Of a stretch of 64,000 bases of DNA, positions 28,601 to 57,597 are shown piece by piece. The stretch lies in assembly GCF_001006305.1 (NCBI RefSeq), contig NZ_LBHJ01000020.1, positions 310,001-374,000 on the forward strand, written 5' to 3'. How positions within the stretch are numbered: the stretch's first letter is position 1; each line of letters opens with the position of its first letter. The DNA is from Silvibacterium bohemicum. GTDB taxonomy: Bacteria > Acidobacteriota > Terriglobia > Terriglobales > Acidobacteriaceae. The position numbers and the translations under genes were made by a program. Below the pieces are notes generated by a model. The model worked only from the letters and a program-made list of their open reading frames with translations. It was not told the DNA's origin and ran no database searches.

Positions 28601-29110
28601 TGGCAGTTGCTGAGCATCTCGACGATCACCAGTGGCGCGCCGTTCACCATTTACTCAGGGATTCAGCAGACGGGCGCGGGGACAATAGGGGCGGACCGGC
28701 CCGACCAGATTGGCAAGCCGATCCTCTCGACGTCTCATAGCGCAACTCGCCGACGGGAAGACTACTTTGGACTCGGTGATGCCAACGCAACATTCTTTTC
28801 GATTCCTATCGGGATACCGGATGGAACCGGACCGAACTCGGGGCGATTCGGAACCCTCGGACGGAATAGCTTCCGCGGGCCGGCTTACTATGACTTCGAC
28901 TTTGCTGTCATTAAGACAACGCCGATTGCCCATCGAAGCAATGGCCTGGAGCGTGCCGACCTTCAGTTTCGCGGAGAGTTCTTTAATGTGTTCAACGTGG
29001 TGAATATGGGGCTGCCGGCGAACACGATCAAAGGATCGGGGTTTGGAGTGATCAGCAAGACAGCAGGGACCTCCCGGCAAATTCAGTTTTCCCTGAAGCT
29101 CATCTATTAA
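25697..29110 (+). CDS. TonB-dependent receptor, Oar-like with carboxypeptidase-regulatory N-domain
   Basis: A 1137-residue outer-membrane receptor with a signal peptide ending near LFAQ. A carboxypeptidase-regulatory-like domain follows (residues about 35-110; VKDSAGTPLVGAKVRLKGAS). The plug is marked by VNELPLNGRDFSTLLLLAAG, then AINGQRGVEAVFAMDGADI. A long beta-barrel ends in FSLKLIY with the terminal aromatic residue. This type is abundant in Acidobacteriota and imports oligosaccharides or other large solutes using TonB. The ATG at 25697 has GGAG seven bases upstream; a TTG at 25685 is also in frame. The neighbouring GH3 suggests a glycan substrate. Confidence 0.92.
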   Translation: MGRIFKRTRCSAGQLLMLVLALTVPLFAQEQSTFAIWHGLVKDSAGTPLVGAKVRLKGASTGESTTAADGSFSLVALPAGEYKLTIVANGKTATYAQTITLASDSPAALITVSNSRQITVAAQQQTDQKGSEKLSSQKVNELPLNGRDFSTLLLLAAGTMTDANGATNFTQQFAINGQRGVEAVFAMDGADISDPEMGGSTFTNFNVDAIQDLQSSSGWMPAEIGRGAAGFTNIVTRSGQSGFHGSFFEFIRNSALDARNYFDHPSVAEPGRIPPFRRNEFGFTNGGPVVLPHVYDGRGRTFYFGQYQGFRQVLGTTQVLAVPTADERRGQDTVTYPDGSTDTLQVNVNPKIATAFARYPLPNNPTGAYGPRTYSAPSKVDTDADQFSIRIDQTLGAKGQFFGRFNYDNLTGPTTNPDQTLLDPTFGVQYVDRQRNVVFTYTRTESPQFLWSSSLSITRTTPSFPTQNYTDPALKFTDGLYEAFNSAAGSVMSAFGNLFHGQVDFVRTTPQHAVKWGIEARLNRDTTYFGTSPNGEYDFGGGTVYSPVFIPSASGEHNVQVGDPLPDTLSSLLVGYPYGYTIAVAPPYLSNGPHIGPAAINRNDVNVYVQDTWKINRQWELDYGLRYELYTPITERAKRTAGFLDANPPAGVEQEYVINPQPGYQTGWNGWEPRVQVNWNAPQAVRVHAGAAITVIPPNIWQDNSLTGSTPFVIYPRVNATKNGEIAYGFQITPGELPQVYSPEGVSVLASGDTKKVPANTVMDVNRYQEDLAALSPGNQLSLLNLSGIDRRFNNAYLQTWTLGVERAFGRLTADAAYVGTAAFRLPRFSYPNAYQGAGPGFAKYTNFDSDGVATGGFGFESVTTDTSHSSYHALQTSLSGQVGHGGPGLQAGYTWSKSLDDVSGVLGGTGSTGAVSLFSPQNPFDTHAEKGPSNFDVTHAFTLSAAQDMHLQSLGDQPALIRPLTQGWQLLSISTITSGAPFTIYSGIQQTGAGTIGADRPDQIGKPILSTSHSATRRREDYFGLGDANATFFSIPIGIPDGTGPNSGRFGTLGRNSFRGPAYYDFDFAVIKTTPIAHRSNGLERADLQFRGEFFNVFNVVNMGLPANTIKGSGFGVISKTAGTSRQIQFSLKLIY

Positions 29111-29161
29111 GAGACCGCGATTCCGATGGAGCCATGGCGGCGACGCCATCGCGGAAGTCTC
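29111..29161 (+). terminator. Imperfect stem-loop directly after the TonB receptor stop
   Basis: GAGA then CCGCGAT at 29111-29121 pairs with ATCGCGG then TCTC at 29148-29161, with a small bulge; an inner ATGGCG-GCGA-CGCCAT hairpin lies within. There is no T-tract, so this may be a factor-dependent end or an mRNA-stabilising structure. Confidence 0.4.
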
Positions 29162-29207
29162 CGACGAAGAACTCGTGAACCCATCCAAAACCGAGTCGTT
29201 GCGGACT

Positions 29208-29302
29208 TGGCGGAAGTGCGTGTGAGTCGAACACACCGTCACCCGTTAAGAGCGACCGCCGGTTTTGAAGACCGGGAGGATCACCGGAGCCTAGGCACTT
29301 CC
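29208..29302 (-). tRNA. selC: tRNA-Sec (anticodon UCA)
   Basis: On the minus strand the sequence folds as a bacterial selenocysteine tRNA of about 95 nt. It has an 8-bp acceptor stem (GGAAGTGC at the 5' end pairing GCACTTCC). The anticodon arm is CCGGT-CTTCAAA-ACCGG with anticodon TCA, followed by a long variable arm. The T arm is GTGTG-TTCGACT-CACAC, and the gene encodes discriminator G plus CCA. The 8-bp acceptor, long extra arm and UCA anticodon are the known hallmarks. It reads UGA codons when brought by SelB. It lies 82 bases from, and divergent to, selD. Confidence 0.96.
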
Positions 29303-29384
29303 AATTTCGCAAGGACGTCTGATGCCGCTGCATCCTTGCCGAAGTAGGTATGATCTTATCTGAGAATCAGGCGGAAAATACTGG

Positions 29385-30452
29385 ATGAGAGATTCTGCAA
29401 CTGTAAGACTGACACAACAGGTCAAGGCCGGCGGGTGTGCAAGCAAGCTGGCGCCCGGTTCGCTTGCGGCCGTGCTATCGAGGCTTCCGAAGCAAAGCGA
29501 CTCAAATTTGCTCGTGGGGTTCGACACCTCTGATGACGCAGGTGTCTATCGGATCGCGCCTGATCTTGCAGTTGTCCAGACCGTCGATTTTTTTACTCCT
29601 CTTGTCGACGACCCTTTTACCTTCGGTCAGATTGCCGCTACCAATGCATTGAGCGACGTTTATGCAATGGGTGGCCGGCCAGTGACGGCTCTTTCGATTG
29701 TGTGTTTTCCCCAAGAGGGCGACCTCGACCTCCTCGAACAGATTATGCTCGGCGGCATGACGAAAATGGGCGAGGCTCAGTGTGTTGTCGTTGGTGGGCA
29801 CAGCGTCCGCGATCCAGAGATCAAATTCGGATACGCAGTTACCGGGCTGATTGATCCAGACCACGTTTATATCAATGCGGGCGCGGTTCCCGGGGATGTC
29901 CTGATCCTCACCAAGCCGATTGGCACGGGTGTAATTACAACAGCGCTGAAGCGCGACCTTGCGCAACCAAGTTGGGTGGAGAACGCGGTGCGGTCTATGA
30001 CCACCCTCAACCGCGCGGCTTCTGCGGCCGTTACCAGTGCGACCGGCATCCATGCAATGACCGATGTTACGGGTTTCGGTTTGATGGGGCACGGTCGCGA
30101 ACTGGCAATAGGCAGCGGAGTGACGATAGAGATCGTAGTGGACCAGGTGCCGCGCATTGAGGGGGCTCTCGAAGCGATCCATCTCGGCGCGATCCCTGCC
30201 GGGCTTTTGGCAAATCGCGAGTTCGCAGAATGCGTGAGTGCAGATGCGCCCGGCTCTCTAATTCCTGATGACCTACGAACCTTGCTCTATGATCCGCAAA
30301 CGGCGGGGGGCCTATTGATTTCCATCGCTCCAGAAAACGCGGGCTCCCTGCTGGATTCATTGCACGCTGCGGGCCTGAACGCGGCCAGAATCGGCTCCGT
30401 TCTAGGGCCTTATACTGCGGGACAGGGCGCACCCGCCATTCTCTTGCGATAG
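29385..30452 (+). CDS. selD: Selenide, water dikinase (selenophosphate synthetase)
   Basis: Makes selenophosphate from selenide and ATP, the selenium donor for Sec-tRNA synthesis. The 355-residue product has the N-terminal catalytic loop AGGCASKLAP. The Cys corresponds to E. coli Cys17 and the Lys to Lys20, while the second Cys (Cys19) is replaced by Ser. The enzyme is thus a Cys form, not a selenoprotein. Later motifs are GFDTSDDAGVYRI, VVQTVDFFTPLVDDPFTFGQ, MTDVTGFGLMGH and YDPQTAGGLL. It is the first gene of selD-selA-selB and is divergent from selC. Confidence 0.96.
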   Translation: MRDSATVRLTQQVKAGGCASKLAPGSLAAVLSRLPKQSDSNLLVGFDTSDDAGVYRIAPDLAVVQTVDFFTPLVDDPFTFGQIAATNALSDVYAMGGRPVTALSIVCFPQEGDLDLLEQIMLGGMTKMGEAQCVVVGGHSVRDPEIKFGYAVTGLIDPDHVYINAGAVPGDVLILTKPIGTGVITTALKRDLAQPSWVENAVRSMTTLNRAASAAVTSATGIHAMTDVTGFGLMGHGRELAIGSGVTIEIVVDQVPRIEGALEAIHLGAIPAGLLANREFAECVSADAPGSLIPDDLRTLLYDPQTAGGLLISIAPENAGSLLDSLHAAGLNAARIGSVLGPYTAGQGAPAILLR

Positions 30453-30498
30453 CGGCATAGGATCACGGGCACTCCACTTCAGGGAATAGAGTCAGGTC

Positions 30499-31977
30499 AT
30501 GAAACGCAGCGAGAACACGACGGGCGATCCCGAGGCTGCGAGTCTGTACAGCCTTTTGCCCTCGATCAATCGTCTCTTACTCGCTCCCGAATTCGCCATA
30601 ATCCTGCAATCCGAATCCCACAGCACAGTGGTTCGCGCCATGCGAGACGTTCTTTTTCGCATCAGGCAGGAGATAGCTGAGGGACTCCATACGCCGGCCA
30701 GCCTAAATAGTTTTCTGATTGGGCTCCATCTGGCAGTTACCCGCGAGATCAGCCAGAGTAAGCGGTATTCCCTGCGACGCGTCATCAACGCGACCGGCGT
30801 GATCCTTCATACGAATTTAGGCCGAGCTCCTCTCAGCGCGTCTGCTCTCTCACACATTCAGGAAATTGCTGCGGGCTATTCCAATCTCGAACTCGATCTC
30901 GAAACTGGAGAGCGGAGCCGCCGTGATGTCCACACAGAAGAGCTACTTCTGCGTCTGCTCAACTTCAACGCAGGCAAACTCAAAGCGAGCTCCACGGCCC
31001 CCCCAAGATCTGCGGTCGTCGTAAATAACTGCGCCGCTGCTACATTTCTCGCACTCAACTCTTTGGCCGAGGGAGCGGAAGTGATCGTCTCCCGAGGTGA
31101 GCTCGTCGAGATTGGCGGCGGTTTTCGTATTCCTGAGATTCTTGCCAAATCAGGGGCGCGCCTGCGAGAAGTCGGCACGACTAACCGAACCAAGTTAGCC
31201 GACTATGAGAGCGCCATCTCCTCCGATACTGGCCTTATCTTGCGTGTTCATCAATCGAACTTCAGCATGGAGGGCTTCACCGAGAGGCCGACATTGCAGG
31301 ATCTTGTCTCGCTGGGACGCCGCCGGGGCATTCCAGTTTTCGACGACCAAGGCACAGGCTTGGTCTGCTCGTTAGACGACCTGGGAGCCCGAGCGGAGCC
31401 AACGTTGTTCGACAGCGTCGACGCCGATCTTGTCTCCGCTAGCGGGGACAAGTTGCTGGGCGGTCCACAGTGCGGCCTCCTTGTCGGCAAAGCTGATCTG
31501 ATCGACCGCATCCGCAAAAATCCCTTGCTGCGAGCGCTTCGCGTCGACAAGCTTACTTATGCAGCGCTCGAAGCAACGCTTGGGGATTACCTATCGGAGA
31601 AGGCGGATTCAGTTCCAGTCGTAAATATGATTCGTCTATCTCCGCTGGACATTCAAAAGCGGTGCGAGTGGGTTGCCGATCAGGTGTGCTCCGACAAGCT
31701 TTTCGCAGAAGCGGTTCCAGTCCTCAGCCTCATCGGTGGCGGGACCGCGCCTTCGGCCCGGCTGCAGAGCTCCGCCGTGTCTCTGCGCCATTCGACGCTC
31801 CAGGCTCAGACGCTGCTGCATACCCTGAGGCGGCTTGATCCACCGGTGATCGGCCGCGTCAGCGATGATGCTGTACTCCTGGACCTCCGGACGGTTGAAC
31901 CTGAATTCGATGCGATCCTCGCGACGCTACTGCGGCAGGCAATCGGCAATGGATCACACTCGTCGGTTCGTGAGTGA
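30499..31977 (+). CDS. selA: L-seryl-tRNA(Sec) selenium transferase (selenocysteine synthase)
   Basis: PLP enzyme converting seryl-tRNA-Sec to selenocysteyl-tRNA-Sec with selenophosphate. The 492-residue length is close to the bacterial norm. Seen: RRVINATGVILHTNLGRAPL in the N-terminal third, VNNCAAATFLALNSLAEGAE, VGTTNRTKLADYE, and the PLP-binding Lys in SASGDKLLGGPQCGLLVG near residue 315. The ATG follows selD by 46 bases in the same operon. Together with SelD and SelB it gives the complete bacterial Sec pathway. Confidence 0.96.
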   Translation: MKRSENTTGDPEAASLYSLLPSINRLLLAPEFAIILQSESHSTVVRAMRDVLFRIRQEIAEGLHTPASLNSFLIGLHLAVTREISQSKRYSLRRVINATGVILHTNLGRAPLSASALSHIQEIAAGYSNLELDLETGERSRRDVHTEELLLRLLNFNAGKLKASSTAPPRSAVVVNNCAAATFLALNSLAEGAEVIVSRGELVEIGGGFRIPEILAKSGARLREVGTTNRTKLADYESAISSDTGLILRVHQSNFSMEGFTERPTLQDLVSLGRRRGIPVFDDQGTGLVCSLDDLGARAEPTLFDSVDADLVSASGDKLLGGPQCGLLVGKADLIDRIRKNPLLRALRVDKLTYAALEATLGDYLSEKADSVPVVNMIRLSPLDIQKRCEWVADQVCSDKLFAEAVPVLSLIGGGTAPSARLQSSAVSLRHSTLQAQTLLHTLRRLDPPVIGRVSDDAVLLDLRTVEPEFDAILATLLRQAIGNGSHSSVRE

Positions 31978-32015
31978 TTTTCTTCGATCACGGTCTTGAA
32001 TAAAATCCTCCCAGC

Positions 32016-33914
32016 ATGACTAAGCCAAGCAAATCTATCGTCATTGGAACAGCCGGCCACATCGATCACGGTAAGACTATGCTCGTGCGTGCACTCACGG
32101 GGGTTGACACCGACCGCCTGCCGGAAGAGAAGCGGCGTGGCATCACCATCGATCTGGGATTCGCTTTTCTCGACGCAACAGGGCCTGACGGCAGCTCCTG
32201 GCGAATCAGTTTTGTCGATGTTCCCGGTCATAGTCTCTTTATTCGCAACATGCTCGCCGGCGCCGGCTGCATCGATGCAGTTCTTTTGGTCATTTCTGCT
32301 GAAGAAGGCGTGAAGCCACAGACCGAGGAACACCTCGCGATCTGCACTCTCCTCGGGGTCCGCCGTGGTCTGACCGTCGTCACCAAAGCCGATGCCGTCA
32401 GCCCCGCCCGCCTCGAACAGGTCTGCTCTGATATCCGAACCTTTCTTTCCGATACCTTTCTTGAAGAAAGCCGCGCCGCGATTCTCCCCGTGAGCGCACA
32501 TACCGGCCAAGGGATCGATGAGCTTCGGCGCGAACTGCTGTCTCTAGCCATGAGCGCAACTTCCCACAATCCTGATCATCTGCCCAGGCTTCCGCTCGAT
32601 CGTGCTTTTGTGATGAAGGGATTTGGCACCGTCGTCACGGGCACCTTGCTTTCGGGAGAACTCCAGGTGGGTGAATCTCTCACCCTCGAACCGGGAAGCC
32701 GCAGCGTACGCGTGCGCGGGATGCAGACCCACGGCCGTCCTGAAGAGCGTGTCGAGTCCGGTTCGCGCGTGGCCCTGAATCTAGCGGGTATTGAAGTCTC
32801 GGATGTCAGCCGGGGCCAGACTCTGGTCTCAGAGGGAACACTGACCTCGACATCCGTTATCGACGTCGACGCGATGTTATTGCCGGGATCATCCGTGGTG
32901 AAGCATCGATCAAGAGTACACTTTCATGCCTTCACTTCTGATACGCTGGCCACCGTTTCGCTCTACGGTTACGAAGCAGCAGAGCCGGGTGTTCGCCGGC
33001 TCATGCGCCTCAAACTCCAGCAGCCTATTGTGCTTGTGCCAGGCGATCATTTTGTATTGCGCCAGCCTTCTCCTGCCGCCACCATTGGCGGAGGACGAGT
33101 TCTCGACGCACATCCCCTCCCCAATCTGCGAAAGGCGAAGTGCCTGGCGTGGTTGGAGAGCTTGAAGGATACGTCACCCGAAGAGCAGCTTCTATTGCGG
33201 GTTGCGCGCCGAGGCAGCGTGGGCCTTGCCATGCATGAGCTGATGGCTGAAACCGGGTTTACACCAGAGGCCCTGGAGCGGCACGTTGAACGGTTTGTCA
33301 GCAGCGGCCATCTGTTTCGTATTCCCGGCAATCGACTGCTCTCCAAAGAGTGCGCAGAGACCGGTATCAACGACATTTCCAACCGTCTCAAGAAGAGCGC
33401 AAAGAGCGATGGCCTCAAGCGGTCAGAATTGAAGGGCCAAACCGGTTTGAATGCGGCGATCTTTGACTTCCTCATTGAGACGCTTGCGAGCAGGCAGGAA
33501 ATTCGGCTGCAGGACGAACGCATTTACCCAGCCGGGCAACCGCAAAGCATCGATCCGGATCTCAAGCAGCGGTCGGCAATTGCCACAATCTATGAAGCGG
33601 CTGGTCTGGCTGCTCCTTCATCTTCTGAAGTTGCAGTGAAGCTCGGACTCAACGAAAGCGAAATGCGCAGGCTCATGACACGTCTGCTTCGCGAAAAAAT
33701 ATTGATCAAGATGGGCACCGATGCACTGTATATCCACCATGGAGCGCTTGAAACATTGCGCGGCCGGGTGCGGGAGTTGCGCGGTCAAATGCTCGACGTC
33801 TCGGGCTTCAAGCAGCTCACCGGGTTATCGAGGAAATACGCGATCCCACTTCTTGAATATCTCGACCGGGAGAGAGTCACTCGCAAGGACGGAGAGAAGC
33901 GTTTGGTGCTTTAG
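32016..33914 (+). CDS. selB: Selenocysteine-specific elongation factor
   Basis: GTPase that carries Sec-tRNA to the ribosome at UGA codons marked by a SECIS hairpin. The 632-residue product opens with the GTPase P-loop ([19 protein letters not shown]), then [17 protein letters not shown] (G3) and VVTKAD (G4). EF-Tu-like beta domains follow ([19 protein letters not shown]). The C-terminal ~230 residues form the winged-helix series that binds the SECIS RNA ([20 protein letters not shown] at the end). It ends by overlapping the last 4 bases of the convergent formate dehydrogenase operon. Confidence 0.96.
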
Positions 33915-34885
33915 AGCCTTCGAGATTGGCCGTCCATCGCAATGTCCCTGGATGATTCGCCGCTTCGGACTTCCAATTCCGCAGCGTGGGGTATCTTGAC
34001 GTACACGGAACGGATGAGCCAGCTTTGCGCTAAAAGAACAATCACGGCAGCCAAGATAAAGACCAGACCGCGATTGAGGATCATCAGGCCGAAAGGGATC
34101 AGCGTCCCGGCAGCGATGAGCACACCAACTCGCCACTGCTGCTTGCCGGTATAGAGTTGCGCATGGATCGTCCGAAGGTTTGCAAACAACAACGCTAAAG
34201 GGATCACGTTGAGCACGAGCAGTACGAGAAAGGCGGTGTGGAGGATCGCGACCGCCTGCGTTTGTCTCATCAGAGCAGACAGGATAAGAAACTCGCCGCA
34301 GCCCATCAGGAGGGCTGAATTCGTGAGATAACCACCCAGCCAGCGTGCGTCTTTCCAACCGGGTTGCGCGTTCGTGCTGAGCAAGACGCCCTTATAGGCC
34401 GCGGCGCCGAAGCCAGGCAGCAGTCCTAAGACCACGGCGAGTATGTGGGCCCACCCAAAATCAAAACCCAGTTCGGCCAGCAGGCTAAGCCCTGCCGCCG
34501 CGGTCAGCGGGAGGGAAAAGATCGTCAGGCACCACGTTCCCACCGACATTGGCGAGGCGGGCTTGAAAATCCTCAGCATGTGATGGAAGCGCAACGGATC
34601 ACCCAGATCCAGCACGAGCAATCCCATGTCAGCGAGAAAAAGCACGAGCGCGACCGGATAAGCAATTTTCGCTCCGCGCATGAAGACCGCGGGCGCGGCC
34701 AGTTCACTGACCGCGGCAACCAGGAACAGTCCCATCGCCATGCCGTTGAGCAAAGCGTCCCAGGCGATAATGCCGTGCCACCCCGGCACCTTCGTCACCG
34801 GCATATTTTCATAGCCGACCTCGCTCCCTCCTTCCGGCAAGGGAGGTTCGGCAAAGGCGTGCTGCGATTTGGAGTTGGTGTGCAT
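33911..34885 (-). CDS. Formate dehydrogenase membrane subunit, NrfD/PsrC-type
   Basis: A 324-residue integral membrane protein with about eight hydrophobic helices. The N-terminal part is WHGIIAWDALLNGMAMGLFL, then FLADMGLLVLDLGDPLRFHH, both typical of NrfD/polysulfide-reductase-type quinone-binding anchors. It is not the two-heme cytochrome b (FdnI) of E. coli FDH-N. It begins directly at the beta-subunit stop (TGAATG), so the three subunits form one operon. It probably passes electrons between the iron-sulfur subunit and the quinone pool. Its end overlaps the convergent selB by 4 bases. Confidence 0.85.
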   Translation of the reverse strand: MHTNSKSQHAFAEPPLPEGGSEVGYENMPVTKVPGWHGIIAWDALLNGMAMGLFLVAAVSELAAPAVFMRGAKIAYPVALVLFLADMGLLVLDLGDPLRFHHMLRIFKPASPMSVGTWCLTIFSLPLTAAAGLSLLAELGFDFGWAHILAVVLGLLPGFGAAAYKGVLLSTNAQPGWKDARWLGGYLTNSALLMGCGEFLILSALMRQTQAVAILHTAFLVLLVLNVIPLALLFANLRTIHAQLYTGKQQWRVGVLIAAGTLIPFGLMILNRGLVFILAAVIVLLAQSWLIRSVYVKIPHAAELEVRSGESSRDIAMDGQSRRL

Positions 34886-35839
34886 TCAGGGCTTCAAAAG
34901 AAAAACTACGATGAGCAGTGCCGCAATCGCGGCCAGGCCGCCTGCGACGGAACGAACATAATCTCCCGCCATATGCAGCCACGGATTGAATGGAGCATCC
35001 GGCAAGCCATAGACGGAAGGGCGATCGACAAGCAGATAAAAGGAGTGCATCGCGGAATAGGTGTCGGTAGGGGCGTCGCCGTAAAGGTACGCCTGCGGGA
35101 GTCCGCGCTGGTGAAGTTCTTCCACACGTTTGCGGGCCTGTTCGCGAAGCTCGTCGATCGGGCCGAAGTGAATGGACTGGGTTGGGCATGCCTTGGCGCA
35201 GGCCGGCTCCAGTCCGTCACGCTGGCGATCGTAACAAAGCGTGCATTTGTGCGAATGACCGCCCATGTCGCTGCGCGTGATGACGCCGAACGGGCAGGCC
35301 GCCACGCAGGACGAGCAACCGTTGCAGATGTCCGCCTGGATATAAATGTTCTCGAACTCGTTTTGGATAATGGCGCCAGTAGGACAGGCCAGATGGCAGG
35401 GCGACGCCACGCAGTGCTTGCAATGGTCGCTCATCATGAGCCAGCGGTTCAGAATCTGCTCGTCGTAGACGGTGCCGGGCTCCACGTTAAGGGAACCGTT
35501 TGGAGAAATAAGCGTGCTTGGCGATCCGTCGGAGAATTGTTCGATGAATTTCACATGGCGCCACGTCGTCGCCGACAATTCCGTCGTATTGTCATAGCTA
35601 TTGCCGGACCAGTTAAAGCCATCCGAGGGCAGCTGGTTCCACTGCTTGCATGCGACCTCGCAAGCCTTGCAGCCGATGCACACGGTCGTGTCCGTGTAAA
35701 AGCCGGTAGCCGGACGAGGCTGGGGCGCCTCACCACGCAGGAACGGATAGATCAGACGCCGCATCAGCTCCGACAGCGGGCCGCGCGGCGGATCGCTGGT
35801 CTGAGTCAGAGCGGATAGTTCCTTTTCCCTACTTGCCAT
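34886..35839 (-). CDS. Formate dehydrogenase iron-sulfur (beta) subunit
   Basis: A 317-residue ferredoxin-type electron-transfer subunit. Four Cys clusters are visible: CIGCKACEVACKQW, CKHCVASPCHLACP, CNGCSSCVAACPFG, and CTLCYDRQRDGLEPACAKACP. These are four [4Fe-4S] sites as in FdnH/FdoH. A single C-terminal membrane helix (SVAGGLAAIAALLIVVFLLK) would dock it to the anchor subunit. No export signal is seen. The start overlaps the end of the catalytic subunit gene by 11 bases. Confidence 0.93.
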   Translation of the reverse strand: MASREKELSALTQTSDPPRGPLSELMRRLIYPFLRGEAPQPRPATGFYTDTTVCIGCKACEVACKQWNQLPSDGFNWSGNSYDNTTELSATTWRHVKFIEQFSDGSPSTLISPNGSLNVEPGTVYDEQILNRWLMMSDHCKHCVASPCHLACPTGAIIQNEFENIYIQADICNGCSSCVAACPFGVITRSDMGGHSHKCTLCYDRQRDGLEPACAKACPTQSIHFGPIDELREQARKRVEELHQRGLPQAYLYGDAPTDTYSAMHSFYLLVDRPSVYGLPDAPFNPWLHMAGDYVRSVAGGLAAIAALLIVVFLLKP

Positions 35840-38800
35840 GTCCGAGCCTTCCTTCTGGTTGCGCGCTATCCGGCGTGTCCGGGATGGGATCGAGGGTCGG
35901 CCAGTGGGCCGTGGGCACCGTTGGTTGCGGAGCCGGACCTTCGAGCCGCCCGGCCTGGACCTGGCAGGTGAACGCCTTGCTTTCGTGCATGCTCACGTTC
36001 GGGTCGGCCATCAGAGCGGTTAGGTCGTTGGCATTGCCGCCGACACTCTCGCCAGCGAAAGCCCAGTGGAACGGGAGGCCGATCTGGTGAACCACGCGTC
36101 CTTCGATAACAAACGGCCGTAGCCGCCTGGTCACCATGGCGCGGGCCTCGATTCGTCCGCGCGGCGTCTGTATTGTCATCCAGCCGCCGTGAACAATGCC
36201 GCGCTCGGCGGCCAGCTCGAAGCTCAGCTCGGCGAACATCGCCGGCTGCAATTCGTTGAGCCAGCTGTTGAAACGGCTCATCGGTCCGCTAAGGTAATGC
36301 TCGGTGAGACGGAAAGTTGTCGCCACCACGGGATATTCAGCTGTCGGCGCGTGGGCGATGCGATTCAGCGGTCCGTCGAAAAAGCGCACCATCGGGCTGG
36401 AACTGTGTTTGGGATAGAGCAGGTTGCCCAGCGGCGACTCGACCGGCTCGTAGTGCGTCGGAAGAGGACCGTCCTTGGTGCTGGGTGAGTACAGCCAGCC
36501 CAACCCGTCAGCTTTGGTGATGAACGGCGTTGTGCCGGCGATGGCTGCCATGCCCTTCGCGCCAGGAGGTGGTTCGTAATCGGGTGCCTTCTCGAGCTCG
36601 AAGTCCGGTTTGTCGGGACCGGACCATTGCCGCTTCTCAAAATCCCACCAGATCAGTTTCTTTCGCTCCGACCACGGGCGCCCTTGGGGATCGGCAGAGG
36701 CGCGGTTGTACAGGACGCGGACATTGTTCGGCCAGGCAAAGCCCCATTCCGGCTGGACCGGGTTATCCGTGATCTTGCGTTCGTCGGCGCGGTTGCGGTG
36801 CGGCTCGGGAAAGACACCGCTGTAGATCCAGCAACCACATGCCGTTGTTCCGTCGTCCTTCAGCTCCGAGTAGCTGCTCAGAAGACGTGGCCGGCCGGTG
36901 CGCGGGTCGGTTTCAACGAGCCGGTGACCGTTTATCTCCATGAGCACCTTTTCCAGGTCCGGCTCCCCTTCGATACGGCTGGGCGTTCCATCGGGCAGAT
37001 GCGGGTGTTCGTCGTAGTCGTAGTCCCAGGTAAGGTTCAGCAGCGCCTGATCCCTTGGGTCGGTCGATCCGGCGTAAAGCTTCTTGAGTCGCTTCCCCAG
37101 ATTGTAGAAAAACCAGGCGTCGGAACGGCAGTCGCCCGCCGGATCGATAGCTTTCTTGTGCCATTGGATGAGCCGCTGGGTGTTGGTTAAGCTGCCCTCT
37201 TTTTCCTGCGCGGCCGCGGCGGGAATGAAGAAGACTTCGGTCCCGATCTCGGACGGCGGCGGCCCCTTAGGATCGTTCTTCCAGAAAAGAGCGCTTTCCG
37301 TCTCGAACCAGTCAAGAACCACCAGCCACTCCAGGTTGCGCAGGCCGGCACGGTGCACATTGGCGTTGGGTCCGCCCCCGGCCGGATTTTGACCGGCCAG
37401 GAAATAACCCTTCACCCCACCCTTTGACATGCGATCGAAGTAGGCCAGTTGCGAATAGTCTCCATCCACACGCGGCAGCCAGGAGAATCCGAAATCGTTC
37501 TCCGGGGTCGCAGCGTCGCCATACCAGGCCTTGAGCAGGCTGACAATGAACTTGCTGAAGTTCGCCCAGTAGCCCGTCGGCATCCCTGAGGACTCGATAT
37601 AAGAACTCAAATCCTCATGCGCCGGATCGTGTGCAGGGGGCTGCGGCAGGTAGCCGGGCAACGTGTCGTACAAGGTGGAGATGTCGGTCGCGCCCTGGAT
37701 GGTCGAGTGGCCGCGCAGGGCCATGATGCCGCCACCAGGACGGCCCATGTTGCCGAGCAACAGTTGCAAAATGCCGGCTGTGCGTATGATCTGGACGCCG
37801 GTGGTGTGCTGCGTCCAGCCCAACGCGTAAGCAATGCAGCTGGTCCGCTCGCGTCCCGAGTTTGTGCAGAGCAATTCCGCGACGCGCTCAAACTCTTCTA
37901 CCTTGCAGCCACACACCTGGGAAACGACCTCCGGCGTGTAGCGGGCGAAGTGCCGGCGCAAAATCTGCATAATGCAGCGCGGATGCTGCAGGGTCGGGTC
38001 GCGCTGCGCGTTGGTCGGGTCTTTGGCCGGCGAGGTGTTGGGTTCATCGCTGCCCTGCAAACTGTGGCCCTGGCCGCCGCCTTTCGCAGACTTTGCCTGG
38101 GCCGCGTGCTCCGAACCGTCCTGCTCCGCGTGGCCGTCCCCGGACTCCTCGAAGCCCCAGTGGCCTTGCTTGGAATCGTAGGACTCGTGCTGCTGGTCGA
38201 AGCCGCTGAAAAGCCCGGCCAGATCTTCAGTGTCCTGAAAACCCTCCTCGATGATCGTCGAAGCATTGGTATAGGCCAGGACATATTCATGGAACCAGCG
38301 GTCGTGAGTTAGGACGTAATTTACGAGGCCTCCAAGGAAGGCAATGTCGCTTCCGGAACGGATGCCCACGTAAAGATCGCACACGGCCGACATGCGGGTG
38401 AAGCGCGGATCGACATGGATCAGCGTTCCACCTCTCTCCTTGGCCTTCATGGGCCAGCGGAAGCCGACGGGTTGTGCCTCCGCCATGTTTGATCCCATGA
38501 ACAGGATGCAGTCGCTATTGGCCATGTCCTGCTGATAATTAGTGGCCGCACCGCGGCCGAACGAGGCGCCCAGACCGGGCACCGAGGCGCTGTGTCATAT
38601 TCGCGCCTGGTTTTCGATCGATACCACTCCCAAGCCGCCGCCGAGCAGCTTCTTGATGAGGTAGTTCTCCTCGTTATCGATCGTTGCCCCGCCCAATGAG
38701 CCGATGCTGCGCACCGAGTTGAGCAAACGGCCTTGTTCGTCGCGAGTGGTAAAGTCGGCGTCGCGAGTGGCCTTGACGCGCTGGGCAATCTGCTCCTGTG

Positions 38801-39128
38801 CCCACTCCAAACTTCGCGTTTCCCAATGATCTGAATAGGGAGCGCGGTAGAGGACATTGCGGACGCGATGCGAATTGACGGAGAGTTGGAAGGCGTTGGC
38901 ACCTTTTGGGCATAGATGCCCCCCGCTGATGGGACTTTCAGGATCGCCCTCAATGTCGATGAGCTCGCCGCCCTTGCTATAGATGAGCTGCCCGCAGCCG
39001 ACGGCGCAGTAAGGACAAATGCCCTCGGTGACGGTGGCGCCGCGCAGCCGCGAAGCCTTTCCCAGTGTCTCTAAGCTGTATGGTTCCCGAGAAGTTTTTG
39101 GTTTCCGGGTCAGTGAGAAGCGAAACAT
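35829..39128 (-). CDS. Selenocysteine-containing formate dehydrogenase catalytic (alpha) subunit; UGA recoded at 38595-38597
   Basis: A 1099-residue molybdopterin enzyme oxidising formate (or reducing CO2), close to E. coli FdnG by motif. N-terminal [4Fe-4S] site CPYCAVGCG ... CPKG. Residues 175-183 read QARI-Sec-HSAS, matching the FdnG QARV-Sec-HGPT site; the UGA sits at residue 178 in an otherwise open frame. Conserved regions continue to the C terminus (ALGWTQHTTGVQIIRTAGIL; DDGTTACGCWIYSG). Read without recoding it would appear as two frames (38595-39128 and 35829-38582). No twin-arginine signal precedes the iron-sulfur site, unlike FdnG. A hydrophilic His/Gly/Ser-rich insert lies around residues 335-380. 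AGGATGAGG precedes the ATG. Confidence 0.95.
38557..38594 (-). promoter_or_regulatory. Bacterial SECIS element
   Basis: Directly 3' of the UGA, GTGCCC (38582-38577) and GGGCGC (38571-38566) form a stem closed by the loop GGTCT (38576-38572). The loop begins 18 nt after the UGA. E. coli fdhF has the same GGUCU loop at the same distance (from memory). SelB should bind this loop to direct Sec insertion. Confidence 0.92.
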
Positions 39129-39152
39129 AGGGCCTCATCCTTTCAAGCATTC

Positions 39153-39169
39153 GTCATCAATAAGATGAC
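39153..39169. promoter_or_regulatory. Inverted repeat in the FDH operon leader
   Basis: GTCATC, five bases, GATGAC: a 6-5-6 palindrome 25 bases before the formate dehydrogenase start. It could be an operator or a leader hairpin; no regulator can be assigned. Confidence 0.4.
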
Positions 39170-39190
39170 AAAGAGGGAGCTTAAAAGCGG

Positions 39191-39225
39191 ATATTAGCAC
39201 AAAAAAAGTAACACCATCTCCTGCT
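39191..39225 (-). promoter_or_regulatory. Candidate promoter of the FDH operon
   Basis: On the minus strand an extended -10-like TGCTAATAT occurs at 39199-39191, about 62 bases before the start codon, preceded by a T-rich tract. The -35 is weak (GTTACT). Inferred only. Confidence 0.35.
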
Positions 39226-39260
39226 GGAAGCTCGTAGAGGCGCATGCACGAAGGCGCTAG

Positions 39261-40619
39261 TTAGCGTTCGCCGTGAAGGCTATCGACGAAAGCCGGATCA
39301 ATCACATTTGTGAGGGTTTGCTGGAACGCGAGCCAATCACATGGAAATCCTTCTGCTCCGGTGCTGCACCCAGGAATGAATAGATTCGCGTCGGGGGGAG
39401 CTTGGTCCATGTTGAGGGGAACGGCATTGCGCATCTGTTCCAGCGTTTGCGCCATGTAATAAGTGTGGACCTCATAGCGACCGGCGTCTGGTTTCTGCCA
39501 AAGCTCAAAGACCAGGGCTCCTCCCGGAGGCGTATCATCGCGACGCCCGTCCAGAAGCCAATTGAGACCGAGCATCCCGGCAACATTGGCGATGTTTGTG
39601 TCGTGCCCCACCAGCACCACAGCGCGGTCGTTCAATTTTCCAAGCGCCCCGCGGAATGGTTTTCCGGAGACCGCTTGCTGCATTGTGTCGGCAATGTGGG
39701 CCAGGAGGTTCGAAGCCTGTACAGCGGCCAGGTAGGGTGTGCGGCGGGTAAGGTCGGAGGCGGCCGTGTGCAGATCCATCAGGTGCCTCACGCTCGACGC
39801 ATCGACGCGACCCCATCCAACCTGCTCCATGGGTAGGCCGTCTGCGTACTCGAGGAGGAAATTTTCGGTGATAGTGGCAGCGGTGTTCAGTGGGCCCTTA
39901 AGTTCCGCAAGATGGTCGCCGTTGCCCGCATCGAGGGTGGCCGGTATGTCGAGCAGGAGCTTGCTCGCGGTGTGGCCGGGCGTGGGACATGGAAACGCTG
40001 GAACACATCCCAGAAGAACGCTCTGCAGTTGCTCAAGCTGAGGCCGATATGCTGTTGTGACTCCATCGGGATCGTCGCCGATGCGTCCCGCGATTGAGGC
40101 GAGAGCACGTTCGTGATCAGGCTTGCCGGCACTCGCGGCCAGTGGATGGAAGAGCGGGTCAGCTGTGCCCTCGATCAGCCAATGCTGCTGCGGCCGCTCA
40201 TCCCGTGGACACTCGGGGAACATTCCTTCGGCGAGGGACTTTGCCGTCTCGACGGTGCGCTGGTCCGAATCGGCATAAATCGAAACATGGGCGGCGTCGC
40301 CGCATCCGTTGCCTGAGATCAGTCCCTGATGCGCAAAGTAGGCTCGATCGTAAGCGCCGAAGATGGCCATGAGCTTCGCGCCGTGCGGAGTGAGGTAGCC
40401 CGGAGGCACATCCCACTTGGGCCAAGGCTGCGATGAATACCGGTCCAGCTGCTCATTGCCTCCAGTTGGAGAGCGAACTCCATGGCGAGTAAGGATCAGA
40501 ACAAATTTAAGCTTGGGAGCCCGAACGTCCGGCATCTGCGCTGATGACGAGTGAACCGCCACAGCGGCAACGAGACTGAGGAGCACTAGCAGGGCTTTAT
40601 GCAGATAGCTGGTCATCAT
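39261..40619 (-). CDS. Secreted histidine acid phosphatase (phytase/glucose-1-phosphatase type)
   Basis: A 452-residue branch-2 histidine phosphatase. The N-terminal catalytic motif is LTRHGVRSPTGG (RHGxRxP) and the distal proton-donor motif is VGHDTNIANVAG (HD). A signal peptide (LLVLLSLVAAVAVHSSSAQ) points to periplasm or outside. The AppA/Agp family hydrolyses phytate or sugar phosphates. The start at 40619 (ATGATG) places the signal peptide at the N terminus; a longer frame would overlap the upstream gene. It lies 16 bases after a YncE-like gene and downstream of a TonB receptor, suggesting use of an imported phosphate ester. Confidence 0.9.
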   Translation of the reverse strand: MMTSYLHKALLVLLSLVAAVAVHSSSAQMPDVRAPKLKFVLILTRHGVRSPTGGNEQLDRYSSQPWPKWDVPPGYLTPHGAKLMAIFGAYDRAYFAHQGLISGNGCGDAAHVSIYADSDQRTVETAKSLAEGMFPECPRDERPQQHWLIEGTADPLFHPLAASAGKPDHERALASIAGRIGDDPDGVTTAYRPQLEQLQSVLLGCVPAFPCPTPGHTASKLLLDIPATLDAGNGDHLAELKGPLNTAATITENFLLEYADGLPMEQVGWGRVDASSVRHLMDLHTAASDLTRRTPYLAAVQASNLLAHIADTMQQAVSGKPFRGALGKLNDRAVVLVGHDTNIANVAGMLGLNWLLDGRRDDTPPGGALVFELWQKPDAGRYEVHTYYMAQTLEQMRNAVPLNMDQAPPDANLFIPGCSTGAEGFPCDWLAFQQTLTNVIDPAFVDSLHGER

Positions 40620-40635
40620 TGTTTTGCTGAGCGGA

Positions 40636-41631
40636 CTACCTGGTGGAGTACACAAGAATGCTGGCCGCGCTTTCGCCGCTGCCCGGAACTCCCACATAAA
40701 GGGTTTTTCGTGAACGCACGAACAGACCAGTCTTTGCGCCCGCGGCCGTATGGATCACTCCTGCCGCCTTTACGTTCTTCTCATCCGTCCTGTAGACGTC
40801 GATCGCCCCACTGCCGGCGATCAGATAGACCTGATGCGTTTCGGCATCGTAGAAAAGGTCGTCGGCCCCGGGGTCGGAAGGCAGATTCGCCAATTGTTTT
40901 CCCGTATCGCCGTCCAGGACAAGCAACCGAGCGGGCGTCCGACACGCAACGAAAAGGATGTGCTGCTCCTCGTCGTACGCAAGGGGCACATTGTTTTTTG
41001 CGCCGGTCAGCTTCCAGATCGTGGACTGCATAGCCGTTCTGCCGTCAATGACGGAAATCTCCGCGGCATCTGCAATATTGGCGAAAACCCTGTCAGTAGA
41101 TTTATCGACCTCTAATTCTTCGGGATGGGAGGTTGCTGAAATGCTCGCCTTCTGCGTCAGGTTTTTCGTATCGATAACCGCGATCCGGCCGGGATGCGCG
41201 GCATCGCTGCCACCATGGCCGACGTAGAGTAGGCCGCTGCTGGCGTCGTAGACCATGTCGTCCGCATCTTCAGAAAGCGGGATGCTCTTCACCAGCCCGA
41301 GAGGGGCGCCCCCATAGAGGTCAAGAACTCCGCTTGCTCCATCGGCAACAAACAACTGGCCCGTGGAGGCCATCCAGGCGAGCCCATGGGGCTTCCCCAA
41401 TCCGGTAAGACTTTGAAGTATTTTGCCGCTGCCTAGGTCGATCACTTCTACGGATTTGTTGCCAGTAGCCGCAGCAAAAATCCTATTGCCAGCCTCATCG
41501 ACGGCAAAGTGGTCGAACTTACCCTGAACTGCGGGGAGATAAATAGTTTTTTCGAGTACGAGCGGTGGATTCTGGCCACGCAAAGAAGATCCGGCCAAAA
41601 CCAGTACGCAGCTAACAAGGAACCTTTTCAT
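40636..41631 (-). CDS. Periplasmic YncE-like beta-propeller protein
   Basis: A 331-residue protein with signal peptide (FLVSCVLVLAGSSLRGQ). Repeated blade motifs follow: NRIFAAATGNKSVEVIDLGS, GQLFVADGASGVLDLY, GLLYVGHGGSD...IAVIDTKN, DRVFANIADAAEISVIDGRT, and HILFVACRTPARLLVLDGDT. This is the YVTN/YncE seven-bladed propeller pattern. Such proteins bind ligands or DNA, but their roles are mostly unknown. Located between a TonB receptor and a histidine acid phosphatase on the same strand, it may be a substrate-binding partner. It is not a canonical beta-propeller phytase, since the Ca-binding motifs were not recognised. Confidence 0.85.
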   Translation of the reverse strand: MKRFLVSCVLVLAGSSLRGQNPPLVLEKTIYLPAVQGKFDHFAVDEAGNRIFAAATGNKSVEVIDLGSGKILQSLTGLGKPHGLAWMASTGQLFVADGASGVLDLYGGAPLGLVKSIPLSEDADDMVYDASSGLLYVGHGGSDAAHPGRIAVIDTKNLTQKASISATSHPEELEVDKSTDRVFANIADAAEISVIDGRTAMQSTIWKLTGAKNNVPLAYDEEQHILFVACRTPARLLVLDGDTGKQLANLPSDPGADDLFYDAETHQVYLIAGSGAIDVYRTDEKNVKAAGVIHTAAGAKTGLFVRSRKTLYVGVPGSGESAASILVYSTR

Positions 41632-53981: not shown

Positions 53982-55118
53982 ATGTCGCTCTTGGATAATT
54001 CTTCGACCGTGAATTCAGCAGTAGCCGTTACCGACCCGGTGCAATCCGCAAAAGACGCGGGCCTTCGCTACGTTTCCGATCTTCAGCCGGGAATCGTCAG
54101 AAAGCGGCATGGAAAGGGATTTCGCTATGTCGGCCCGGATGGAAAGCCGGTGCGCGACCGCGAGGTTCTGCAGCGTATTCAGTCGCTCGTGATCCCTCCG
54201 GCCTGGACCGATGTATGGATATCCACCAGCCCCAAGGGACATCTGCAAGCGACCGGGCGCGATGCAAAAGGAAGAAAGCAGAGCCGGTATCATCCTCGCT
54301 GGCGCGAGGTGCGCGACGAGACGAAGTACGAGCGTATGCTGATTTTTGGAGCCGCTCTTCCCGCACTTCGAGAGCACGTCGTTCAGGATTTGGGCGTGCC
54401 TGGAATGCCCCGCCGCAAGGTGCTCGCGACTATCGCGCGGCTCATGGAAACGACGCTGATCCGGGTGGGCAACGAGGAATACGCCCGGGCGAATCACTCT
54501 TATGGCCTCACCACCATGCGCGTCCGCCACGTAGAAGTGGAGGGATCCACTGTCACTTTCAAATTCCAGGGCAAGAGTGGCGTTCGCCATACGATCGACA
54601 TCAATGATCGCCGCATCGCGAAGATCATCCGGCGCTGCCAGGATCTGCCGGGCTATGAACTTTTTCAATACGTCGACAGCGATGGCGAACAACATTCGAT
54701 TGACTCGGCGGACGTAAACGAGTATCTGCGCGAGATCAGCGGCCAGGACTTCACCGCGAAGGATTTTCGCACCTGGGCGGGAACGGTACTCGCCTGCATG
54801 ACTTTACGCGCGTTCGATGCATTTGAATCGGATACACAGGCAAAGAAGAACGTCGTATGTGCGATCAAGGAGGTAGCCGCCAAGCTGGGGAACACGCCTT
54901 CGGTATGCAGAAAGTGCTACGTGCATCCGGCCGTGCTGGAGTGCTATCTGAGCGGCTCGATGGCAGAAATACTGAAGAAGAAGTTGAGCGCGAAGCCCGA
55001 AAACTTCACCCTCTCGCTCGCAAATGAAGAGCTGGCGGTGCTGCGTCTCTTACGGAACACAGCTACAGAAAATGGAGTTCGCGCTCGGAGACCCTCCAGG
55101 CGCAAAGCAGTTTCCTGA
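53982..55118 (+). CDS. Type IB DNA topoisomerase (poxvirus-like)
   Basis: A 378-residue monomeric topoisomerase relaxing positive and negative supercoils by a 3'-phosphotyrosyl link. N-terminal domain: GFRYVGPDGKPVRDREVLQR, then IPPAWTDVWISTSPKGHLQA. Catalytic region: RVGNEEYARANHSYGLTTMR, FRTWAGTVLACMTL, and the active-site Tyr in CRKCYVHPAVLE near residue 318. Length is typical for bacterial family members. No strong ribosome-binding site was seen before the ATG at 53982. It is followed by an SDR and other stress-type genes. Confidence 0.94.
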   Translation: MSLLDNSSTVNSAVAVTDPVQSAKDAGLRYVSDLQPGIVRKRHGKGFRYVGPDGKPVRDREVLQRIQSLVIPPAWTDVWISTSPKGHLQATGRDAKGRKQSRYHPRWREVRDETKYERMLIFGAALPALREHVVQDLGVPGMPRRKVLATIARLMETTLIRVGNEEYARANHSYGLTTMRVRHVEVEGSTVTFKFQGKSGVRHTIDINDRRIAKIIRRCQDLPGYELFQYVDSDGEQHSIDSADVNEYLREISGQDFTAKDFRTWAGTVLACMTLRAFDAFESDTQAKKNVVCAIKEVAAKLGNTPSVCRKCYVHPAVLECYLSGSMAEILKKKLSAKPENFTLSLANEELAVLRLLRNTATENGVRARRPSRRKAVS

Positions 55119-56514: not shown

Positions 56515-56643
56515 GCCGCAACAGCTTCAGACACTTCTGAAACTCTCTTCCATAGCTCATCCAAAATCCTACGTTTGACATACTGTCCGTCGACAAGCTG
56601 GCATCTTCGCTTGTTTGCGATGGTTCAGCTATGGAGAGACCCG

Positions 56644-57597
56644 ATGGAACTCATAATCGATAGCCCGCTTTCTCACCCAGCCAGCAGCGCACCAATACCA
56701 GCGGAGGGCCCGACCACCTCTGCCTTCAGAACACCGGAGGAGCTTGCCGAGATCGTCTCGCGATTCGCTTCATCGGATGAATGGATGGACAAGGTGCGGA
56801 TGAGCGCGAAAGGACGTTGGTACGAGCGGCTGTATCACGGTCCGGACCATGACATATGGGTGATCAGTTGGCTGCCCGGGCAATCCACCGGCTTTCATGA
56901 CCATGGTGAATCCGCCGGAGCCTTCGTCGTAGCGACTGGGATTCTTGAGGAGCATCGTCCCGGTGAACAGATCGACGTGATACGTCCGGGCAAACCACGG
57001 GCTTTCGGCGCCGATTACGCTCACGACGTCCGGAATGTCTCGCTCGCACCGGCAATCAGCATCCACGCCTATTCCCCTCCGCTTGAAGAAATGAACGAAT
57101 ACGAGCTGGATGGCGATCAGCTCGTTACGCGCGATCACACTTCTGGCGAAGCTGAGACGCCCAATCGGGAGTGGGGCGAAGAGCGCCGGAACTCCGCACA
57201 TTCGCATGGTGCTTTGAGCATTGAAGAGGTGCTTTCGGAGGCACGTTACCGACTGCGACGGCTGTCTCCGGATGAGGCCTACGAAGCGATGGTCAAGGCA
57301 GAGGCGATACTCGTCGATATTCGGCCGGAGGGCCAGCGTGCGATCGAGGGCAGTATTGCGGGCGCCTTAGTTATCGAACGAAACGTGCTGGAGTGGCGAT
57401 TCGACCCGGCCTCCAACTCGCGGTTGCCCGTCGCGACCGACCATGACATCCAGATCATCGTGTTCTGCTCCGAAGGCTACACCTCAAGCCTCGCGGCCGC
57501 GGCTTTGCAGGATCTCGGCCTCTGGCGCGCGACTGATGTGATAGGTGGATTTCAGGCATGGCGCACAATGGGTCTGCCGACTACAACAAACGATTAG
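56644..57597 (+). CDS. Cysteine-dioxygenase-like cupin fused to a rhodanese domain
   Basis: A 317-residue two-domain protein. Residues 30-180 form a CDO-type I cupin (WVISWLPGQSTGFHDHGESA, GAFVVATGILEEHR; later DYAHDVRNVS), with the HxH iron ligands in FHDHGESAG and a third His in AHDVRN. Residues 205-312 form a rhodanese domain (AEAILVDIRPEGQR; active Cys in IVFCSEGYTSSLAAAAL; GGFQAWRTMGLP). The first part oxidises cysteine or a related thiol to a sulfinate and the second transfers sulfane sulfur. The ATG at 56644 has GGAGAG nine bases upstream; longer in-frame starts add unrelated residues. Confidence 0.87.
   Translation: MELIIDSPLSHPASSAPIPAEGPTTSAFRTPEELAEIVSRFASSDEWMDKVRMSAKGRWYERLYHGPDHDIWVISWLPGQSTGFHDHGESAGAFVVATGILEEHRPGEQIDVIRPGKPRAFGADYAHDVRNVSLAPAISIHAYSPPLEEMNEYELDGDQLVTRDHTSGEAETPNREWGEERRNSAHSHGALSIEEVLSEARYRLRRLSPDEAYEAMVKAEAILVDIRPEGQRAIEGSIAGALVIERNVLEWRFDPASNSRLPVATDHDIQIIVFCSEGYTSSLAAAALQDLGLWRATDVIGGFQAWRTMGLPTTTND

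Follow-up and report, generated by a model that had tools for sequence, protein, structure and literature searches.

The window analysed here, a stretch of 64,000 nucleotides of the Silvibacterium bohemicum genome (contig NZ_LBHJ01000020.1, positions 310,001 to 374,000), contains a formate dehydrogenase operon next to genes for the decoding of selenocysteine (Sec) (Table 1). The gene encoding the catalytic (alpha) subunit is interrupted by an in-frame TGA, which is almost certainly read as Sec, judging from the sequence and its relatives. It is followed by genes encoding an iron-sulphur (beta) subunit and an NrfD-like membrane subunit, and tRNA-Sec, selD, selA, and selB all lie within 10 kb of the alpha gene.

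Table 1. Features of the formate dehydrogenase and selenocysteine-decoding locus, in window coordinates (SECIS, selenocysteine insertion sequence).
Feature	Position	Strand	Product or remark	Basis
Formate dehydrogenase alpha subunit	35829..39128	minus	1099 aa, Sec at residue 178	Frame reading, TIGR01553 and NF041513
UGA and bacterial SECIS element	38559..38597	minus		Comparative pairing, codon constancy, genome-wide model match
Iron-sulphur (beta) subunit	34886..35839	minus	317 aa, 4Fe-4S ferredoxin-type, one C-terminal hydrophobic helix (297-315)	Domain models
NrfD-like membrane (third/gamma) subunit	33911..34885	minus	324 aa	Weak Pfam NrfD match
selB, Sec-specific elongation factor	32016..33914	plus	632 aa	Model over cut-off
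selA, Sec synthase	30499..31977	plus	492 aa	Model over cut-off
selD, selenophosphate synthetase	29385..30452	plus	355 aa	Model over cut-off
tRNA-Sec	29212..29302	minus, divergent from selDAB	Anticodon UCA	Rfam RF01852, 70.5 bits; ARAGORN 29208-29302

The alpha frame starts with an ATG at 39128, meets the TGA at 38597-38595, and then stays open to a single TAG ending at 35829. The original prediction took the two adjacent frames on either side of this TGA as one gene, and its coordinates, its product of 1099 residues, and its placing of Sec at residue 178 all hold. The downstream frame, given as 35829-38582, has the correct gene end, but 38582 is merely the first GTG past the TGA, and the open frame restarts at 38594. 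When read through, the product passes the cut-offs of both TIGR01553 (1014 vs. 814.2) and the NCBIfam model NF041513 (1438.2 vs. 1400 bits, residues 30-1062). A solved Sec-containing formate dehydrogenase also aligns with the product (766.8 bits over query residues 25-335 and 375-1058, as two stretches), with no break at the UGA. Because this match runs across the UGA, the family models score above their cut-offs, and relatives share the TGA (see below), the pair of frames is not a product of chance. The alignment to the solved enzyme breaks at an insert of some 39 residues that is low in complexity (alpha 336-374, window 38007-38123), of which the locus in Granulicella sp. L46 (L042) has a variant form.

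When the window protein was searched against 61 genomes and further genome contigs, TGA was found at the aligned position in all of the 28 translated alpha loci, including the window copy (L009), in the context NQAR[IVL]-U-H. Outside this count are three further alpha-like rows spanning the site (two in G019 and one in G035, 44-47% identity), with one internal TGA each, and nine loci below our limits (L030-L038, 24-33% identity over parts), which we take as other molybdopterin enzymes. No residue other than the UGA-coded one occurs at the site in the 28 loci, Cys-type homologues not having been specifically sought; thus, neither of the two contrary findings named in the original prediction, close homologues with neither Sec nor Cys and a sequencing error, was encountered. 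The 28 loci form two groups, as a twin-arginine translocation (Tat) leader is absent from all 22 members of the window's clade and present, like that of Escherichia coli FdnG, in all six of the others; L041 starts at residue 6, and its extreme N-terminus is outside this comparison. The same two groups are separated in a tree of 25 of the alpha loci and E. coli FdnG, which is a long branch (L026, L028, and L029 were too short, and six rows retained the leader). Besides these loci, remoter molybdopterin oxidoreductases at 30-34% identity (G021:C10, G057:C96, G015:C34, G017:C26, and G055:C1) carry one in-frame TGA each, and are perhaps FdhF-like selenoproteins.

Directly 3' of the UGA, within 39 bases, is a hairpin with a six-pair stem GUGCCC/GGGCGC (bases 16-21 with 27-32, counted from the U of UGA) and the loop GGUCU. 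SelB reads a SECIS loop of the GGUCU type, and this loop is identical in E. coli fdhF, while that of fdnG differs by one base at the same distance from the UGA. Within the no-Tat clade, represented by 17 of the 25 distinct sequences (those set aside being six of the Tat type and two from E. coli), pairing holds in 102 of 102 cells, and the covariation score is 0.233, whereas sliding the structure by 1 to 3 columns gives 0.002-0.025. The hairpin covaries in part: at pair 18-30, which links the third base of a Val codon to that of a Gly codon and is therefore a synonymous-site pair, GC, CG, AU, and UA all occur, and pairing is kept in 19 of 19 distinct rows from the clade's 22 loci, which was matched by one of 20,000 shuffles. 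The clearest sign of constraint on the RNA rather than the protein is, in our view, codon constancy at the hairpin tip. Among 165 columns with an invariant residue (V, P, G, A, T, L, R, or S) in 20 of the 28 sequences (six Tat-type rows, L026, and L029 left out), just three use a single codon, and these are the adjacent Pro-Gly-Leu codons at +6 to +8 from Sec, which form the tip. When the genome was scanned with a covariance model built on the hairpin, 150 of 4314 first candidates were scored, and the best match among them is the window site (63.3 bits). The next has 15.9 bits, and hence no second SECIS of the Fdh type, the one type that this search covered, was seen.

The decoding set beside the operon is complete. 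Genome-wide, one selA and one selB score above their cut-offs. The window selD carries CxxK in place of UxxK, the motif of Sec-type SelD (PMC13188914). The selB and NrfD-like genes are arranged tail to tail, with stop codons overlapping by 4 bases (33911-33914).

As to the type of complex, the window alpha has no Tat signal, since neither an RR motif nor a hydrophobic stretch is present in the 37 residues preceding the first CPYC. An in-frame TGA is the third codon upstream of the ATG, which makes a longer start impossible without another recoding. The beta subunit falls below the cut-off of the FDH-beta model (162.1 vs. 334.7 bits), and the third gene has NrfD (PF03916) as its sole Pfam match, a family for which the homologues in L042 and L045 exceed the cut-off of 25.8 (35.0 and 30.8 bits). 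The catalytic subunit is homologous to that of E. coli FdnGHI (TIGR01553), in which the fdnG TGA stands at codon 196 within the same motif. Unlike FdnGHI, however, the window complex has no Tat signal, its beta subunit is below the FDH-beta cut-off, and its third (gamma) subunit is NrfD-like rather than a cytochrome b of the FdnI type. Without the export signal, and with this third subunit, it is not an Fdh-N complex; the earlier label “FdnG” is therefore right for the catalytic subunit but not for the complex. The alpha subunit probably faces the cytoplasm and, as it has no export signal, formate is probably oxidized there. Electrons would pass from alpha to the iron-sulphur subunit and on to the NrfD-like membrane subunit, presumably with a link to quinone, and we infer a cytoplasm-facing, quinone-linked formate dehydrogenase.

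We thus read the internal UGA as Sec because the read-through product belongs to known families, all 28 loci share the TGA, a hairpin conserved at synonymous sites follows it, and the genes for tRNA-Sec, SelA, SelB, and SelD all lie within 10 kb. The sequence features that mark a selenoprotein gene are present: an in-frame UGA at the conserved metal-ligand position, a SECIS hairpin 3' of it, and selA, selB, selC, and selD in the genome. The metal ligand in formate dehydrogenase families is Sec or Cys. The ribosome would reach the UGA at codon 178, where the hairpin would recruit SelB carrying the Sec-tRNA-Sec produced by SelA and SelD; translation would then continue over the remaining 921 codons, and Sec 178 would act as a ligand to the active-site Mo or W. 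Taken together, we hold with high confidence that codon 178 is a Sec codon decoded through SECIS and SelB and supplying a Mo or W ligand, in an enzyme predicted to carry out NrfD-linked formate oxidation in the cytoplasm.

Several observations weigh against this reading. The window NrfD-like subunit scores below the Pfam cut-off (15.8 vs. 25.8 bits). Two weaker tRNA-Sec matches elsewhere in the genome (50.0 and 47.1 bits, compared with 70.5 for that of the window) exceed the Rfam threshold of 47, and are probably ordinary tRNAs whose variable arm is long. Covariation on both sides of the stem is confined to one pair (18-30, four cells), and 222 of 500 shuffles equalled this pair count, while none of the 500 equalled the cells. 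One step further out, pair 15-33 forms in 12 of the 19 distinct rows. In single-sequence folding, the first 43 and 53 bases gain no stability over shuffled sequences (z 0.11 and 0.70), with z -2.30 for a 71-base piece; such folding is uninformative here, and the hairpin consequently rests on comparison. Further, three pairs of the window-type stem hold in one, three, and three of the six Tat-type rows, and this misfit suggests that the Tat-type hairpin is built somewhat differently.

None of the other explanations of the TGA fares well. It could be a real stop that separates two genes or marks a pseudogene, as the two open reading frames listed under genetic code table 11 would have it; this is extremely improbable given that both pieces belong to one enzyme, that the same TGA recurs in 28 of 28 loci, that the codon constancy right after it is unmatched in the other columns of the 165, and that a complete decoding set adjoins. 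Reading of the UGA as another amino acid such as Trp, through a suppressor or a change of code, is to be given just as little weight, in view of a tRNA-Sec with anticodon UCA, SelA, SelB, and SelD, and the SECIS hairpin 3' of the UGA. A sequencing error or a recent point mutation of a sense codon has a negligible chance of being right and counts as already refuted, as the identical TGA in 27 other loci from independent genomes, two of them from named isolates (L042 and L044), excludes such an error. The original claim of a Sec codon rather than a frameshift or stop is hence upheld by the family models, the shared TGA, the hairpin, and the decoding genes.

The window's nearest named kin are Acidobacteriaceae. 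Its alpha subunit shares 88-90% identity with the enzymes of Granulicella sp. L46 (L042), Edaphobacter lichenicola X5P2 (L044), and the metagenome bin L039, 85-87% with those of bins L040 and L041, and 71-75% with those of two Gemmataceae bins, but 48-53% with its own family's ten no-Tat enzymes and 38-41% with the four of the Tat type that were compared. L039, L040, L041, L043, and L045 are all metagenome bins, the contigs of which are possibly misplaced. In eight genomes of the same genus, five of which are less than 90% complete, no Sec formate dehydrogenase was found (best match E 1.1e-27).

As in the window, the operon, tRNA-Sec, selD, selA, and selB lie side by side in Granulicella sp. 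L46 and E. lichenicola X5P2. However, the operon is at the selB end and tail to tail in the window, whereas it is at the tRNA-Sec end and in the same direction as selDAB in the two relatives. Similarly, the window operon is 79-89% identical to theirs, while the Sel proteins are merely 50-65% identical. At fourfold degenerate sites, the window and L042 differ by 0.32 in alpha, 0.34 in beta, 0.29 in gamma, 0.47 in rpoB, and 0.66-0.68 in selD, selA, and selB (0.32 in alpha and 0.66-0.70 in selDAB when either relative is taken). Compared with these relatives, the enzyme operon of the window looks younger than the split of the hosts, and the sel genes far older. Between L042 and L044, on the other hand, divergence is 0.20 in alpha, 0.25 in beta, 0.17 in gamma, and 0.16-0.19 in selD, selA, and selB, vs. 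0.50 in rpoB (protein identity 91.8% for alpha and 91.5-92.5% for SelDAB), and in these two, enzyme and sel genes look to have moved as one block after the hosts split. The yardstick for the hosts is rpoB alone, and the rpoB rows of G001 and G002, which were in the wrong reading frame, were excluded.

The trees point in the same direction, as the two Gemmataceae bins are the closest outgroups of the window's clade in the alpha tree, with full support, while the SelA of both bin genomes is placed far from the window SelA. The SelA trees held 24 rows (22 of the 44 genomes over the cut-off, namely the 20 best-scoring ones together with the window and G008, to which L042 and L044 were added), or 28 rows with four more added, and were built without L083 (a fragment of the window gene) and L109 (the same gene as L053). 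No selA over the cut-off was found in the L039 genome. Within the genus, G008 has a selA 70% and a selB 67% identical to those of the window, while its RpoB is 95% identical; given this, their fourfold-site divergence of 0.64-0.66 suggests that the sel genes too may be acquired, or else fast-evolving. G008 (L108, G008:C101) encodes selA, cut at a contig end, and selB, yet no Sec formate dehydrogenase was found in it; the genome may be incomplete or may encode another selenoprotein.

From these comparisons, the operon and selDAB seem to differ in evolutionary history. We lean, by a small degree, toward a scenario in which the operon moved among acidobacteria, and also between phyla, independently of the decoding genes, and repeatedly landed beside the recipient's tRNA-Sec-selDAB module, at opposite ends in different hosts. 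If so, the neighborhood would have been assembled by selection or at a preferred insertion place, rather than inherited as a single island. Against separate histories are the long SelA branches in this group, the origin of the Gemmataceae rows and of three others from bins, and the lack of insertion signs, as no repeats of at least 18 bases occur in 28900-40900; no transposase or integrase was found among the 13 window proteins run against Pfam. The whole locus could instead have arrived as one island, with sel genes that merely evolve faster, and its physical linkage, the long SelA branches, and the reliance on a single host gene (rpoB) all speak for this. Such an origin is unlikely, though, because alpha and selDAB diverge about equally between L042 and L044 (0.20 vs. 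0.16-0.19) yet very unequally from the window (0.32 vs. 0.66-0.70), and because the operon occupies opposite ends of the sel genes. Of the eight same-genus genomes, five have a match to the flanking phosphatase gene (49-65% identity, partly fragments), and six have matches to the flanking receptor gene (65-76%, among many paralogues). In the three genomes in which both flanks are matched (G004, G007, and G008), they lie on separate contigs, so that no empty site is shown.

Elsewhere in the window, we noted a cysteine dioxygenase domain and a rhodanese domain in a single protein (56575-57597), and a type IB (eukaryote-like) bacterial DNA topoisomerase (53982-55118).

The Sec formate dehydrogenase gene described here is of a known type. 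Among bacterial selenoprotein families, formate dehydrogenase alpha is described as the one with the widest distribution (PMC13188914), and another study lists an acidobacterium in which three selenoprotein genes are known (PMC12013277). The label of NF041513 (formate_DH_Act), the cut-off of which the window protein passes, hints by name alone at actinobacterial members, whereas the named kin of the window are Acidobacteriaceae. Streptomyces incarnatus likewise combines a Sec formate dehydrogenase-O with a selABCD cluster in its genome (PMC4498112), but differs in being an actinomycete. In Pseudomonadales, fdhA occurs near or flanking selA-selB-selC, and horizontal transfer was proposed in 2006, with the Sec trait spreading jointly with the first selenoprotein (PMC1794560); as far as the available part of that paper goes, both the enzyme and the decoding genes were proposed to be acquired and no difference in history was noted, whereas in the window the histories seem different. 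We met no literature on separate transfer of the enzyme operon and the sel genes in Acidobacteria, although no search was aimed exactly there. The differing histories of operon and decoding genes are therefore the sole part that may be new. As a gene call, the result guards against the mis-splitting of a known selenoprotein type. As to the original expectation that automatic annotation would call two genes or a pseudogene, NCBI does have a model whose cut-off the read-through product passes. More broadly, an operon and sel genes that are adjacent yet seemingly different in history would make the stepwise assembly of the Sec trait testable within one bacterial family.

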